Assembly: GCF_000299935.1 (NCBI RefSeq)
Contig: NZ_AMRL01000001.1
Location: 1-64,000, forward strand
Length of the DNA: 64,000 nucleotides
Reading direction: 5' to 3'
Origin: Oceanibaculum indicum P24
GTDB taxonomy: Bacteria; Pseudomonadota; Alphaproteobacteria; Oceanibaculales; Oceanibaculaceae
Made by a program: the position numbers and the translations under genes. The notes below the pieces were generated by a model. That model saw nothing but the letters and a program-made list of their open reading frames with translations. It did not search any database and was not told where the DNA came from. How positions within the stretch are numbered: position 1 is the stretch's first letter; the number at the start of each line of letters is the position of its first letter. Positions 53,104-58,630 of the stretch are shown here, one piece after another.

Positions 53104-54201
53104 TCAGGAGACGAGTTCCGCGCGCTGTTTTTCCATCTGCTCGAATCGCGCCCAAACACCATTGCCGCCATCCCAGCTGCCGCGGCTGGCGCCCTTGGAA
53201 TATTCCGTCGCGCGCTGCTCGAAGAAGTTGGCGTGCTCCACGCCGTTCAGGATTTCCACCAGCCAGGGCAGCGGGTGCGGCGTGAGCTGCTTGTAGCCGG
53301 TGTCGGTCTTCTCGAAACAGCCGAACACGGTGGGCAGGCGCAGCTGGGTCAGCCGCCAGTCGGCGATGTAGCGGACATAGGCCTTGATGTCCTCGGCCTT
53401 CATCCCCTCGATCTCGCCGATGCCGAAGGCCAGATCGACGAAATTCTCCTCAAGACCCACCATCGTCTTGGCGACGTCGATGATGTCGTCGCGCACGGCA
53501 GGCGTGACCGCGCCGGTCTCCCGGTGCCATTCGTGGAACAGCCGGATGATGCCCTCGCAATGCAGGCTCTCGTCGCGCACCGACCAGGAGACGATCTGCC
53601 CCATGCCGTTCATCTTGTTGTGGCGCGGGAAGTTCAGCAGCATGGCGAAGCTGGCGAACAGCGCCATGCCCTCGGTAAACGCGCCGAACATGGCCAGCGT
53701 GCGGGCGACGTCCGACACCGTCTCCACGCCAAACGTGTGCATGTAGTCGGCCTTGGCGCGCATCTCCGAATAGTCGCGGAACGCCTCGAACTCCGACTGC
53801 GGCATGCCCAGAGTCTTCAGCAGCAGCGCATAGGCGTCGATATGCACCGTCTCCATGTTGGAGAAGGCGGCCATCATCATCTGCAGTTCCAGCGGCTGGA
53901 ACAGCGGGATGTAGCGCTTCAGGTAATTGTCGCCGACCTCGACGTCCGACTGGGTGAAGAAGCGGAAAATCTGCGTCAGCAACGCCCGCTCGGAATCGCT
54001 GACGCGATCCGAGGCCCAGTCCTTGATGTCGCCGCCCAGCGGCACTTCCTCGCCCATCCAGTGGGTCTGCTGCTGGCGCTTCCAGTATTCGTAGGCCCAG
54101 CCATAGCGGTTCACATCATAGGTGCCGGTGGCGGTCAGCAGCCCGACCTTGCCGGTACCGACCAGATCGCGCGGGTTCAGATAACCCAGATTTACTGACA
54201 T
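53104..54201 (-). CDS. nrdB: Class Ia ribonucleotide reductase, small subunit
   Basis: A 365-aa R2 protein. Diiron ligand regions: SDVEVGDNYLKRY, METVHIDAYA (Glu, His; the radical Tyr is four residues after the His), EGMALFASF and RDESLHCEG. It makes the tyrosyl radical for NrdA. The start is the ATG at MSVNLGYL: GAGGAG lies nine bases upstream, inside the last codons of nrdA; a GTG nine bases earlier overlaps that site. The first ten bases overlap nrdA, so the two are coupled. Confidence 0.94.
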   Translation of the reverse strand: MSVNLGYLNPRDLVGTGKVGLLTATGTYDVNRYGWAYEYWKRQQQTHWMGEEVPLGGDIKDWASDRVSDSERALLTQIFRFFTQSDVEVGDNYLKRYIPLFQPLELQMMMAAFSNMETVHIDAYALLLKTLGMPQSEFEAFRDYSEMRAKADYMHTFGVETVSDVARTLAMFGAFTEGMALFASFAMLLNFPRHNKMNGMGQIVSWSVRDESLHCEGIIRLFHEWHRETGAVTPAVRDDIIDVAKTMVGLEENFVDLAFGIGEIEGMKAEDIKAYVRYIADWRLTQLRLPTVFGCFEKTDTGYKQLTPHPLPWLVEILNGVEHANFFEQRATEYSKGASRGSWDGGNGVWARFEQMEKQRAELVS

Positions 54202-56207
54202 GCCAGGCACTCCTCGTAATCGGTTGGGGCCTGGTTATCGAAGGCCGACGTCTCGCCCTCCTCCGCCTTGGCATCCAGCTTGCCGGCGAAGGCGGCACGG
54301 CTGATCGACTTGGAGCGGCAGTAATACAGGCTCTTGATGCCGCGCTTCCAGGCGGACCAGTGCAGCATGTGCAGGTCCCACTTGTCGATGTCGGCCGGCA
54401 GGAACAGGTTCAGCGACTGGCTCTGGCAGATGAAGGGCGCACGGTCGGCCGCCAGGTCGATGATCCAGCGCTGGTCGATCTCGAAGGCGGTGCGGAAGGT
54501 CGCCTTCTCGTCCTCGCTGAGGAAATCGAGATGCTGGACCGAACCTTCCTTCTCCACGATGGACTGCCACACCTCGGCGGTGTTCTGGCCCTTTTCCTCC
54601 AGCATCGTCTCCAGATGGCGGTTGCGCACGGAGAACGCGCCGGACAGCGTCTTGTGGGTGTATATGTTGGCCGGGATCGGCTCGATGCCGGCGCTGGTGC
54701 CGCCGCAGATGATGCTGATGGAGGCGGTCGGCGCGATGGCGATCTTGTGGCTGAAGCGCGCCTTCATGCCGGCATCATGCGCGTCCGGGCACGGCCCGCG
54801 CTCTTCCGCCAGCGCCACCGAGGCGGCGTCGGCCTCGCGGCGGATCTTGCGGAACATCTTGAAGTTCCAGGACTTGGCGAGCGCGCTCTCGAACGGAATG
54901 CCGCGCGCCTGCAGGAAGGAATGGAAGCCCATGATGCCAAGCCCGACGGAGCGCTCGCGCATCGCCGAATAGGTCGCGCGCTCCATGCCGCTGGGCGCAT
55001 TCTCGATGAAATGGGTCAGCACATTGTCGAGGAAGCGCAGCACATCCTCGATGAAGCCCGGCTCCTCGGCCCACTCCTCCCAGGTCTCGACATTCAGCGA
55101 GGACAGGCAACACACGGCAGTGCGCTCCTTCTCCTCCTGGTCCTGACCGGTGACCAGGGTGATCTCGCTGCACAGGTTGGAGGTGGAAACCTTCAGCCCC
55201 AGCTTCTGCTGATGCTTCGGCAGGGCGCGATTCACCGTGTCGATGTACAACAGATAAGGTTCGCCGGTCTGCAGGCGGGTCTCAAGGATGCGCTGCCACA
55301 GCTGGCGGGCATCGACCTTGCGCAGCACCTCACCGGTTTTCGGGCTCTTCAGCCCGAACTGGCCGCCATCGCGCACCGCTTCCATGAACTCGTCGGTCAC
55401 GTTGATGCCGTGATGCAGGTTCAGGCCCTTGCGGTTGAAATCACCCGAGGCCTTGCGGATTTCCAGGAATTCCTCGATCTCCGGATGGTGGATGTCGAGA
55501 TAGACCGCCGCCGAGCCGCGCCGCAGCGAGCCCTGGCTGATCGCCAGCGTCAGACCGTCCATCACATGGATGAAGGGGATAATGCCCGAGGTCTCGCCTG
55601 CCCCCTTCACTGCCTCGCCGATGGAGCGGACCTGGCCCCAATAGGTGCCGATGCCGCCGCCATTGGAGGCCAGCGCGACATTCTCGTTCCAGGTGCGCAC
55701 GATGCCATCCAGCGAGTCCGGCACCGCGTTCAGGAAGCAGGAAATCGGCAGGCCGCGCGTGGTGCCGCCATTGGACAGCACCGGCGTCGCCGGCATGAAC
55801 CACAGGCGCGACATGGCGTCATAGAGGCGCTGGGCATGGCCGATATCGTCGGCGAAGGCGCAGGAGACCCGCGCGAACATGTCCTGATAGCTTTCACCTG
55901 CCAGCAGGTAGCGGTCGGTCAGCGTCGCCTTGCCGAAAGCGGTCAGCAGCGCGTCGCGGTCGCGGTCCAGCTTCAGGTCGGAAGGCTGAGGACGCGGCGC
56001 CAGCGGATAGGGCAGCGGCGCGCGGCGTTCCAGATTCAGGGCCTGCTGATGCGGGAAATCCGGCTCCGGCGGCTGCACGCGCGGGCGCTGCTGCACGGGC
56101 CGAGGCTGTACCGGGCGCGCCTGCGCCGGACGAGACTGGGAAGGCCCGCCCGGAGTCTGCGGAACGAGATTGCCGTCATAGTCGAAATCGAAAGCCAGAG
56201 AGGACAT
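54192..56207 (-). CDS. nrdA: Class Ia ribonucleotide reductase, large subunit
   Basis: A 671-aa R1 protein reducing NDPs. The substrate-site radical Cys lies in SNLCSEITL; the redox Cys pair is in GLPISCFLN and ERTAVCCLSSLN; the C-terminal CLACQ swinging pair is intact. The N-terminus is a Pro/Gln/Arg-rich linker of about 80 residues (SQSRPAQARPVQPRP-like) and no ATP-cone is recognisable, so the usual dATP activity switch appears absent in this protein. The start MSSLAFDFDYD fixes the length. A cobalamin riboswitch lies about 107 bp upstream. Confidence 0.94.
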   Translation of the reverse strand: MSSLAFDFDYDGNLVPQTPGGPSQSRPAQARPVQPRPVQQRPRVQPPEPDFPHQQALNLERRAPLPYPLAPRPQPSDLKLDRDRDALLTAFGKATLTDRYLLAGESYQDMFARVSCAFADDIGHAQRLYDAMSRLWFMPATPVLSNGGTTRGLPISCFLNAVPDSLDGIVRTWNENVALASNGGGIGTYWGQVRSIGEAVKGAGETSGIIPFIHVMDGLTLAISQGSLRRGSAAVYLDIHHPEIEEFLEIRKASGDFNRKGLNLHHGINVTDEFMEAVRDGGQFGLKSPKTGEVLRKVDARQLWQRILETRLQTGEPYLLYIDTVNRALPKHQQKLGLKVSTSNLCSEITLVTGQDQEEKERTAVCCLSSLNVETWEEWAEEPGFIEDVLRFLDNVLTHFIENAPSGMERATYSAMRERSVGLGIMGFHSFLQARGIPFESALAKSWNFKMFRKIRREADAASVALAEERGPCPDAHDAGMKARFSHKIAIAPTASISIICGGTSAGIEPIPANIYTHKTLSGAFSVRNRHLETMLEEKGQNTAEVWQSIVEKEGSVQHLDFLSEDEKATFRTAFEIDQRWIIDLAADRAPFICQSQSLNLFLPADIDKWDLHMLHWSAWKRGIKSLYYCRSKSISRAAFAGKLDAKAEEGETSAFDNQAPTDYEECLACQ

Positions 56208-56313
56208 CGCTACCCCGTCGATCAGGTGGTGACAGGGCAACAGGTCATCCCGCGGGCACAATCCCCCTCCCCGCAAGCGACCCAAAGGACACCCCGCCCA
56301 AGGTCATACGTCT

Positions 56314-56516
56314 GGTCATGGCAGGTCTCCTGGCTTGCGGGTCGCCGTTGCTTGCCCGGCCTTCCCGAATCCCGGCCTCGCTCCGGGCATTCAGTGGCAT
56401 GAAAGGGCAAAAACTCGCCGCTCACAGTTGCGGGGACAGCTCCGGATTTAGCAGAAAGCCCGCCGCACCGAATTCCCGTCTTAGCCCCAAATCTACCGAA
56501 TCGGGGAACCATAACC
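56314..56516 (-). promoter_or_regulatory. Cobalamin (B12) riboswitch upstream of nrdAB
   Basis: Read leftward, the leader has the conserved B12-riboswitch blocks: GGGAATTCGGTG, GAGCTGTCCCCGCAACTGTGA, the B12 box GCCACTG (plus strand 56392-56398), CGGGAAGGCCGGG and the 3' core CAGGAGACCTGCC. P1 closes with GGTTATGG at 56516-56509 against CCATGACC at 56321-56314, pairing over eight positions with one G-T. It is 107 bp from the nrdA start, so it controls a B12-independent enzyme. Confidence 0.93.
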
Positions 56517-56523
56517 ACTAGAT

Positions 56524-56551
56524 ACGGTAGCGGTTATCCCAATACTGTCAA
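56524..56551 (-). promoter_or_regulatory. Sigma70-type promoter of the riboswitch-nrdAB transcript
   Basis: TTGACA (56551-56546) is followed after 16 bases by TACCGT (56529-56524). Transcription would begin about 56517, exactly at the 5' end of the riboswitch P1 stem. Confidence 0.6.
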
Positions 56552-56580: not shown

Positions 56581-57651
56581 TCAGGCTGGAAGCAGTGCTT
56601 CCTGACCGATACCGCCGCGCACCGCGCCGGCCTCCACATGGCGCCACAGGACGCTGTGATCCTGCGGCAGCGGGCGGCTGTTCGGCATCGACAGCCAGAG
56701 CCGGAACAGCAGGCGGTCGCGGCCCTGCGTGGCGTCGTCGGTGAAGGGCGTGCGGCCATGATAGACGACATGGTTGTTCAGCAGCTGAATGTCGCCCGGC
56801 TCCAGCACCATCTCGAAGGACAATTCCTCCATCGTCGCCTGGAACAGCGCCAGCGCTTCCTTCTGCGCGTCGGTCATCGGCGGCACGCCGGCGATGAAGG
56901 CCGCCGCCTCGATATAGGTCAGCGAATAGTGGCTGGTCAGCTTGCCGTCGCGCAGCCCGAAGATCGGCAGCGGATAGGCCACCTGCTCCGCCCCTTTCTC
57001 CTCGCCGAAGCGGCTGCGGTAATAGGGCTGGCACAGCACCTCCAGCAGGTCCGGCCGGCGCTCCCGGATGGTGTTATAGACCATGGGGGAGGAGCACAGC
57101 TTGCTGACCCCGCCATTGGCGGCCTGGCGAACGCACAGCAGGCCGACCACATCGCAGCGGTCGGTATGGAAGCGCAGCGCCCCGTTCGACAGGGTGCGGG
57201 CGTAGGAGGACAGGAAGGTGCCATTATCCTTGGTCTGCACCTGGCCATAGCGTTCGCCGACGACGCTCGCCCCCTCGTCACGGATCTCGCGCATCAGTTC
57301 GCCGCGGTTATTCTGGAACAGCGTGTATCCCAGATGCTTGCCGAGGCCGAAATACAGCTTCTTCAGCTGGGCCTCCGAATAGCGCTCCACCGGGATGCGG
57401 CGCAGCTTCACCATGCCGCTGCCATTCTCCAGCTCCTCACGGACCGCCTCCAGCCTGTCGGCCAGCGCGCCCAGCGGGAAGCTCTCGCGGGTGATATCGT
57501 GCCAGGCCATGCCCTGCGCCTCGACATGGGCCAGCGCCGCATCCAGCGCCGCGATGTCCTGGCCCGTCAGCTCGACAATCCAGCGCTCCGACGTCGCCAT
57601 TTCGGCGCCATGCCAGACGCAATCGCCCTCGATCCTCGGTAATGCAGTCAT
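56581..57651 (-). CDS. TauD/TfdA-family Fe(II)/2-oxoglutarate dioxygenase
   Basis: A 356-aa oxygenase. Iron ligands His162 and Asp164 in FHTDRCD and the distal His298 in VVYHGRTPF, with 2-oxoglutarate Arg317 in LLFRLWL. The N-terminus of about 75 residues precedes the barrel. The substrate is unknown (taurine, carnitine, trimethyllysine or secondary metabolites are possible in this superfamily). GGAGGGTGAA precedes the ATG. It is followed by its own regulatory stretch, then the divergent riboswitch region on its left. Confidence 0.86.
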   Translation of the reverse strand: MTALPRIEGDCVWHGAEMATSERWIVELTGQDIAALDAALAHVEAQGMAWHDITRESFPLGALADRLEAVREELENGSGMVKLRRIPVERYSEAQLKKLYFGLGKHLGYTLFQNNRGELMREIRDEGASVVGERYGQVQTKDNGTFLSSYARTLSNGALRFHTDRCDVVGLLCVRQAANGGVSKLCSSPMVYNTIRERRPDLLEVLCQPYYRSRFGEEKGAEQVAYPLPIFGLRDGKLTSHYSLTYIEAAAFIAGVPPMTDAQKEALALFQATMEELSFEMVLEPGDIQLLNNHVVYHGRTPFTDDATQGRDRLLFRLWLSMPNSRPLPQDHSVLWRHVEAGAVRGGIGQEALLPA

Positions 57652-57724: not shown

Positions 57725-58630
57725 CTACCAGACGAAACGGCCCATCAGATATGTCGGTCGCACAGGCTTGTCGGCGATGAAGCCGCGCCAGGCGGCCTCC
57801 GTCGGCAGCCTGTTCCCGCTCACACCCAGCGCCGCGCCATGAATGCCGTCGGCCACCAGCGCGCTGTCGCAGCGGAAGCGGGCAGCGCCTGCGATGTCGT
57901 GATGCAGCGAATCGCCGACGGCGAGGATGCGCCCCTTGTCGGACAGGCCCAGGCTGGCAAGGCAGCTGCGGTAGATCGGCGGGTAGGGCTTGCCGTGCCA
58001 CTGCACGCGGCCGCCGCGCCGCTCATATTCCTCCGCCACCAGCCCGATGGCCTCGGCCAGCCTGCCGCCATCGACGCGGTGCGTGTCCGGGTTGGCGCAG
58101 ACCATCGGCAGGCCGCGCGCCAGCCCCTGTTCTATCAAGCCTTCATAGGCCTCGAGCAGGCCGGTCTCGCGGGCATCGCCGATCAGCAGCAGGAAATCCG
58201 CCTGACCAACATCCGCCACCAGATCGATATCGACGCCATCCAGGAAGCTCGAATCGCCCGGTCGCTTCGTCGCATAACAGCGGCGGCCAAGGCCGGCATA
58301 GAATTCATCCGCATCGGTCTTGCCCCGGCTGGCGAGGCCGCGCCAGGCATCCTCCCCTGCCGAGATCATCTCGTCATACAGGTCGGGGGTGAAGCCGATG
58401 CGCGCCATCAGCGCGACATTGTAGTCGTTGCGCTTGCCGGAATTGGACAGCACCACCACCCGCTTGCCGGCCTCGCGCAAGGCTTTCAGGCACTCCAGCG
58501 CACCCGGATAGGGCGTTTTGCCGTCATGCAGCACGCCCCACTGATCGAGGATGAAACCGTCATAGCGCCCGGCAACCGCGCCGAGGCCGGTGATCGTCTG
58601 CGTTCCTGCCCAGTTGGCGTCAGCGGGCAT
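57725..58630 (-). CDS. TIGR01459-type HAD hydrolase
   Basis: A 301-aa HAD-IIA-like phosphatase. Motif I GFILDQWGVLHDG (Asp nucleophile near residue 29), motif II VVLSNSGKR, motif III GKPYPPIYRSCL with the Lys, motif IV LAVGDSLHHDIAGA. Length and blocks match the alphaproteobacterial TIGR01459 family. Substrate unknown. Its start lies 3 bp after the stop of the sodium channel gene, so the two are one operon. Confidence 0.88.
   Translation of the reverse strand: MPADANWAGTQTITGLGAVAGRYDGFILDQWGVLHDGKTPYPGALECLKALREAGKRVVVLSNSGKRNDYNVALMARIGFTPDLYDEMISAGEDAWRGLASRGKTDADEFYAGLGRRCYATKRPGDSSFLDGVDIDLVADVGQADFLLLIGDARETGLLEAYEGLIEQGLARGLPMVCANPDTHRVDGGRLAEAIGLVAEEYERRGGRVQWHGKPYPPIYRSCLASLGLSDKGRILAVGDSLHHDIAGAARFRCDSALVADGIHGAALGVSGNRLPTEAAWRGFIADKPVRPTYLMGRFVW

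Follow-up and report, generated by a model that had tools for sequence, protein, structure and literature searches.

A predicted translational cobalamin riboswitch in the leader of the class I ribonucleotide reductase genes nrdAB of Oceanibaculum indicum

Control of B12-independent isozymes by B12 was reportedly predicted by Rodionov et al. in 2003. Isozymes of B12-dependent enzymes are described as a recognised class of cobalamin-riboswitch targets in a survey that included Rhizobiales, Caulobacterales, and Rhodobacterales and whose main text contains no mention of nrd (PMC3766115). According to the passages of PMC5962746 and PMC4991794 that cite Borovok et al. 2006, the nrdABS operon of Streptomyces has a B12 riboswitch. 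A putative adenosylcobalamin riboswitch was annotated from RNA-seq data upstream of nrdAB in Bacillus methanolicus MGA3 (PMC4342826). In btuB and env8, a kissing loop promotes the formation of a hairpin at the ribosome-binding site, and the change that intervenes between the two is stated as not known (PMC10653944). The B12 riboswitch on nrdAB is therefore already known, and what the locus presented here adds is that the output is probably translational and the distribution wider than expected. A literature search that stopped short of the founding surveys of 2003 and 2006 returned no description of an alphaproteobacterial nrdAB riboswitch, and an earlier listing is possible.

The locus is part of a stretch of 64,000 nucleotides of the genome of O. 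indicum P24 (contig NZ_AMRL01000001.1, positions 1 to 64,000), which is referred to as the window. When the window was scanned with all Rfam families, a cobalamin riboswitch was the sole match above the gathering score. The original prediction had placed a B12 riboswitch in the nrdAB leader and proposed a search of the minus strand with RF00174. The search (cmscan, Rfam 15; gathering cut-off 31.5 bits) bears the prediction out with a match at 56528-56303 that covers the complete model (positions 1-189) with 124.4 bits and an E-value of 8.5e-31. The core pairs of RF00174 are intact in the aptamer (Table 1). The closing helix P1 is present as well; by eye, TGGTTATGG (56517-56509) pairs with CCATGACCA (56321-56313) to form nine pairs, one of them U-G, instead of the eight base pairs counted previously. 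The aptamer ends 95 nt before the start codon of nrdA (56207). The upstream gene in the direction of nrdAB, which encodes a TauD-family dioxygenase, already ends at 56581, and therefore nrdAB is the target of the riboswitch. Judged by its sequence, the B12-sensing RNA switch before nrdAB is genuine, and its ligand is most likely adenosylcobalamin. The genes of the TauD-family dioxygenase (56581-57651) and of a HAD-IIA hydrolase (57725-58630) are located on the same strand and have no evident link to B12.

Table 1. Positions of the predicted regulatory elements and genes in the window and of related features on other contigs
Feature	Position	Strand	Evidence or remark
Probable -35 box TTGACA	56546-56551	-	position of TTGAC kept in relatives
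Weak -10 box TACCGT, or CCGTAT in the register of the relatives	56529-56524, or 56527-56522	-	
Cobalamin riboswitch aptamer RF00174	56303-56528	-	covariance-model match; same place in 4/4 genomes of the genus
L5 kissing-loop bases CCCCGC	56430-56435	-	complementary to L13
L13 bases GCGGGG	56292-56297	-	located in the P13 loop (hairpin at about 56303-56281)
Anti-ribosome-site arm UUGCCCUGUC	56231-56240	-	predicted to pair with 56219-56210
Sequestered strand GACGGGGUAG	56210-56219	-	ribosome site GGGG (56216-56213), paired in the predicted fold
nrdA, class I large subunit, 671 aa	54192-56207	-	NF006577, 1012.5 bits (cut-off 620); PF02867; PF00317
nrdB, class I small subunit	53104-54201	-	NF007186, 505.2 bits (cut-off 237); PF00268
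NrdJ	contig C6		TIGR02504, 591.7 bits (cut-off 399.95)
Long NrdJ	contig C32		NF005736, 2223 bits (cut-off 1737)
Second, only other RF00174 match of the genome	C19:15876-16073	-	shortly before a BtuB-like TonB receptor

A promoter composed of TTGACA and TACCGT had been proposed to start transcription of the leader, and its two boxes fared differently. TTGACA is a probable -35 element by its conserved position, as a TTGAC box is found 22-24 nt before the start of the Rfam match in most of 46 relatives. TACCGT agrees with the -10 consensus in three of six positions, and a promoter consensus scan identified no sigma-70 site in the region and rejected the TTGACA/TACCGT pair. The register of the relatives puts the -10 box approximately two bases further on, just inside the Rfam match, and would place the start of transcription near the beginning of P1, at about 56517.

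Both nrdA and nrdB exceed the curated cut-offs of their NCBIfam families, and therefore the regulated gene encodes a B12-independent enzyme. The start codon of nrdA is the ATG at 56207, and not the start of the longer open reading frame at 56285. The ATG of nrdB at 54201 makes the two genes overlap by 10 nt. NrdA contains the class I barrel and the all-alpha domain, and we take its cysteines 157, 346, and 667/670 to be at the expected catalytic and C-terminal places. Similarly, the NrdB motifs ETVH...Y, FTEG, and RDESLH are presumably those of the metal ligands and the radical tyrosine. The nearest solved structures by sequence are 6dqw for NrdA and 9dws for NrdB, which is the only class I small-subunit (R2) gene found in the genome. 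NrdA and NrdB appear to form an intact class I enzyme. The enzyme had been called class Ia; class I is upheld by the tyrosine, metal-ligand, and cysteine motifs, and the subclass is not established, the ATP-cone being unmatched. An N-terminal ATP-cone is common, albeit not universal, in class Ia NrdA, and the Pfam results for NrdA include no match to it (PF03477). NrdA may therefore be without the usual switching of activity by dATP, which riboswitch control could partly replace.

The genome contains three genes for large subunits of ribonucleotide reductases: nrdA of the window and two genes for NrdJ. The class II enzyme that had been predicted elsewhere in the genome is thus present twice, above the family cut-off in both cases. 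The TonB receptor that follows the second cobalamin riboswitch of the genome has TIGR01779 (TonB-B12) as its best family, with 310.6 bits, which is below the cut-off of 599.7. CbiC/CobH (PF02570) and CbiJ/CobK (PF02571) are without a match in the assembly, which is 98% complete, even though the genome has three features that depend on B12 or are linked to it. The two unmatched corrin-ring genes suggest B12 auxotrophy, short of proof. Since CbiC and CbiJ are unmatched and the other riboswitch precedes a gene resembling those of B12 receptors, the signal sensed at nrdAB is probably scavenged B12. Most likely, the organism scavenges B12 and has one B12-free reductase besides two that depend on B12.

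The leaders of related nrdA genes contain a nearly invariant block downstream of the aptamer, CGGGCGGGGTG followed by CCCG, which corresponds to the P13 hairpin. L5 and L13 retain all six of their pairs in 43 of 46 non-redundant leaders, and where the bases have changed, the changes include compensated ones such as CUUCGC/GCGGAG in locus L042 and UCCCGC/GCGGGA in Wenzhouxiangella. P13 itself is weak in the window. Further downstream, the ribosome site GGGG is positioned five bases before the ATG of nrdA, within the hairpin listed in Table 1. The stems at this place in the relatives are very different in sequence yet paired, as in CUCUCC/GGAGAG, CCUCCG/CGGAGG, and GACCCCC/GGGGGUC. Several bases of the 5' arm differ in a sister genome (L093), and all of them are still paired. 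Single-sequence fold z-scores of the hairpin are weak, with a mean of -0.5, and its significance was judged instead by exchanging the arms among the 46 sequences. The arm upstream of a ribosome site is a better pairing partner for it than the arms of other leaders; in the four settings of this test, which ignores kinship, p was 0.008 in the first and z was -4.2, -5.1, and -2.2 in the others. The expression platform is predicted to be a hairpin that sequesters the ribosome site, and the leader points to translational rather than transcriptional shut-off.

The same riboswitch could turn nrdAB off at the level of transcription, by premature termination, for example Rho-dependent, in the leader or early in nrdA. 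Streptomyces nrdABS provides a precedent for transcriptional control, judging by the title under which PMC5962746 cites Borovok et al. 2006, and an mRNA with a sequestered ribosome site can be exposed to Rho. However, the nrdAB leader contains no intrinsic terminator and its conserved element is the ribosome-site hairpin, and termination is an unlikely explanation. A different type of control would be coupling to an upstream open reading frame, as in metE of Mycobacterium tuberculosis. The candidate frame of 24 codons starts at the ATG 56319 behind AGGAG, with a good ribosome site, AGGAGACCTGCC-ATG, and interplay of B12 riboswitches with upstream frames has been described (PMC11260477). Nevertheless, AGGAGACC belongs to the aptamer consensus and other relatives do not preserve the frame, which makes such coupling very improbable. 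A leader peptide at 56319 was rejected, as neither the sister genome L093 nor Oceanibaculum pacificum (GTAAC) has the ATG. A consensus NrdR box, ACACWATATATWGTGT, has no match within three mismatches in the window. The preferred reading, to which we give a probability of about 0.75, is that the cobalamin riboswitch of the nrdAB leader functions as a translational OFF switch with a presumed response to B12. If control is translational, a constant level of nrdAB mRNA with and without cobalamin would not alone contradict regulation by the riboswitch.

In the proposed mechanism of this OFF switch, adenosylcobalamin would fill the aptamer and L5 would dock onto L13. The docking of L13 would leave the C-rich arm downstream available for pairing with the G-rich ribosome site. 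With the ribosome site closed, NrdA would not be made, and neither would NrdB, which is probably coupled to NrdA through the 10-nt overlap of the genes. NrdAB would then be off while B12 is available, and the B12-using enzymes encoded elsewhere in the genome would take over. When B12 is missing, the sequences of L13 and P13 would compete for the arm, the ribosome site would be open, and NrdAB would take the place of the idle class II enzymes.

Structure ensembles predicted for the platforms are consistent with a competition for the arm. L13 pairs with the anti-ribosome-site arm with a mean probability of 0.41. When L13 is blocked in silico, the pairing between the arm and the ribosome site increases on average from 0.53 to 0.82; among 45 leaders it goes up in 27 and down in 3. 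The effect is stronger than that of other 7-nt blocks (Wilcoxon p = 7e-7), although among the 30 leaders with a change, L13 was the single most effective block in only 17. It is possible, as a tentative model of these ensembles, that the same six nucleotides of L13 choose between L5 and the anti-ribosome-site arm, and that the docking itself frees the arm. If true, the choice made by L13 would directly explain, for this subfamily, how a filled aptamer changes the expression platform. The hairpin of the window itself is so stable that it is predicted to be closed whether or not L13 is free, and therefore switching in this leader would need to take place co-transcriptionally, ahead of hairpin formation.

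Each of the four genomes of the genus has the riboswitch directly before nrdA (four genomes were sampled of the GTDB order), and the nearest named relative is O. pacificum. The loci of 80 named relatives of NrdA were scanned with Rfam; 77 of them could be assessed, and 58 have the aptamer ahead of nrdA on the coding strand. Locus L023, which is cut by a contig end, and two loci with too little upstream DNA were left out of the 77; in L023 the aptamer is still visible by its 3' end. The carriers belong to Rhodospirillales, to Rhizobiales including Bradyrhizobium and Pseudolabrys, and to the gammaproteobacterial genus Wenzhouxiangella, and the titles of some metagenome-assembled genomes among the relatives are plainly misassigned. 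The spacing between the aptamer and the start codon is 88-132 nt in nearly all relatives. On the tree of NrdA, the presence of the riboswitch requires 8 changes, compared to 17.2 when the labels are shuffled, which fits ancestral presence followed by losses. On the comparison of these leaders, the arrangement is old and widespread in alphaproteobacteria and is no oddity. The original view that it is known mainly in actinomycetes has to be given up, given the 58 carriers and the report from B. methanolicus.

Individual loci deviate from the common arrangement. In Magnetospirillum fulvum (L089, 1719-1910) the riboswitch is approximately 590 nt from the start of nrdA, compared to about 100 nt elsewhere, and something may be inserted between the two. 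The nrdA aptamer of L042 reaches only 34.4 bits, and a second riboswitch with 129 bits is located upstream of it in the opposite orientation (2180-2389 and 951-1146). Additional cobalamin riboswitches near nrdA, also in the opposite orientation, are found in L022 (1764-1944, minus strand) and L015 (1-151, minus strand), indicating that other B12-controlled genes adjoin nrdAB in some genomes. A table of similarities among the aptamers does not separate the switches of nrdA from those of btuB.

The co-occurrence with class II enzymes was evaluated in a broader sample, since these enzymes are nearly universal in the closer set, where they are present in 28/28 genomes with the riboswitch and 21/22 without it, giving no contrast. 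The broader sample comprised 115 alphaproteobacterial genomes of different families, 47 of which encode a close NrdA, and the riboswitch precedes nrdA in 7 of these 47. All 7 genomes with the riboswitch encode a class II enzyme, compared to 14 of the 40 without it (Fisher p = 0.0018, with kinship ignored).

Both NrdAB and NrdJ are kept without a recognisable riboswitch in L016, L017, and L019, and in L032, L043, L049, L050, L053, L055, L056, and L067. These groups are natural controls for the loss of the riboswitch. They also show that relatives can dispense with a recognisable aptamer and retain both enzymes, which, together with the weak P13, would allow the aptamer of the window to be a relic in decay that has lost its control of nrdAB in its host. 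However, the aptamer scores 124 bits with its core intact, it is kept throughout the sampled genus, and the substitutions in the sister genome leave the ribosome-site hairpin paired, so that decay is hardly credible and a functional OFF switch is preferred.

If B12 represses NrdAB, the synthesis of DNA precursors changes its enzyme class with a vitamin that is probably taken from neighbours. The breadth of the distribution, from Oceanibaculum to Bradyrhizobium and Wenzhouxiangella, makes the rule testable in tractable species, and the rule could help to predict the reductase at work in water or soil that is poor in B12. For studies of how translational cobalamin riboswitches switch, the set of compared leaders provides targets, namely L5, L13, and the anti-ribosome-site arm.

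Like nrdABS of Streptomyces, as described by the citing papers PMC5962746 and PMC4991794, the locus has a cobalamin riboswitch ahead of a class I nrdAB operon, and the genome also encodes NrdJ. The Streptomyces system is from an actinomycete and transcriptional as reported, whereas the leader in the window has a conserved ribosome-site hairpin; furthermore, nrdS is absent and the genome encodes two NrdJ proteins. B. methanolicus MGA3 is a Firmicute in which the target, nrdAB, is the same, and the mechanism was not tested there (PMC4342826). The repression of a B12-independent isozyme by B12 is shared with the metE riboswitches of M. tuberculosis and Priestia megaterium, although the pair of enzymes differs; the metE switch of P. 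megaterium is transcriptional and that of M. tuberculosis involves an upstream open reading frame. In its predicted architecture and proposed OFF response to ligand, the leader resembles the translational cobalamin riboswitches of Escherichia coli btuB and env8 (PMC10653944), in which an L5-L13 kissing loop is coupled to a ribosome-site hairpin. The targets of those two are a transporter and a metagenomic leader, whereas the target in the window is a ribonucleotide reductase.
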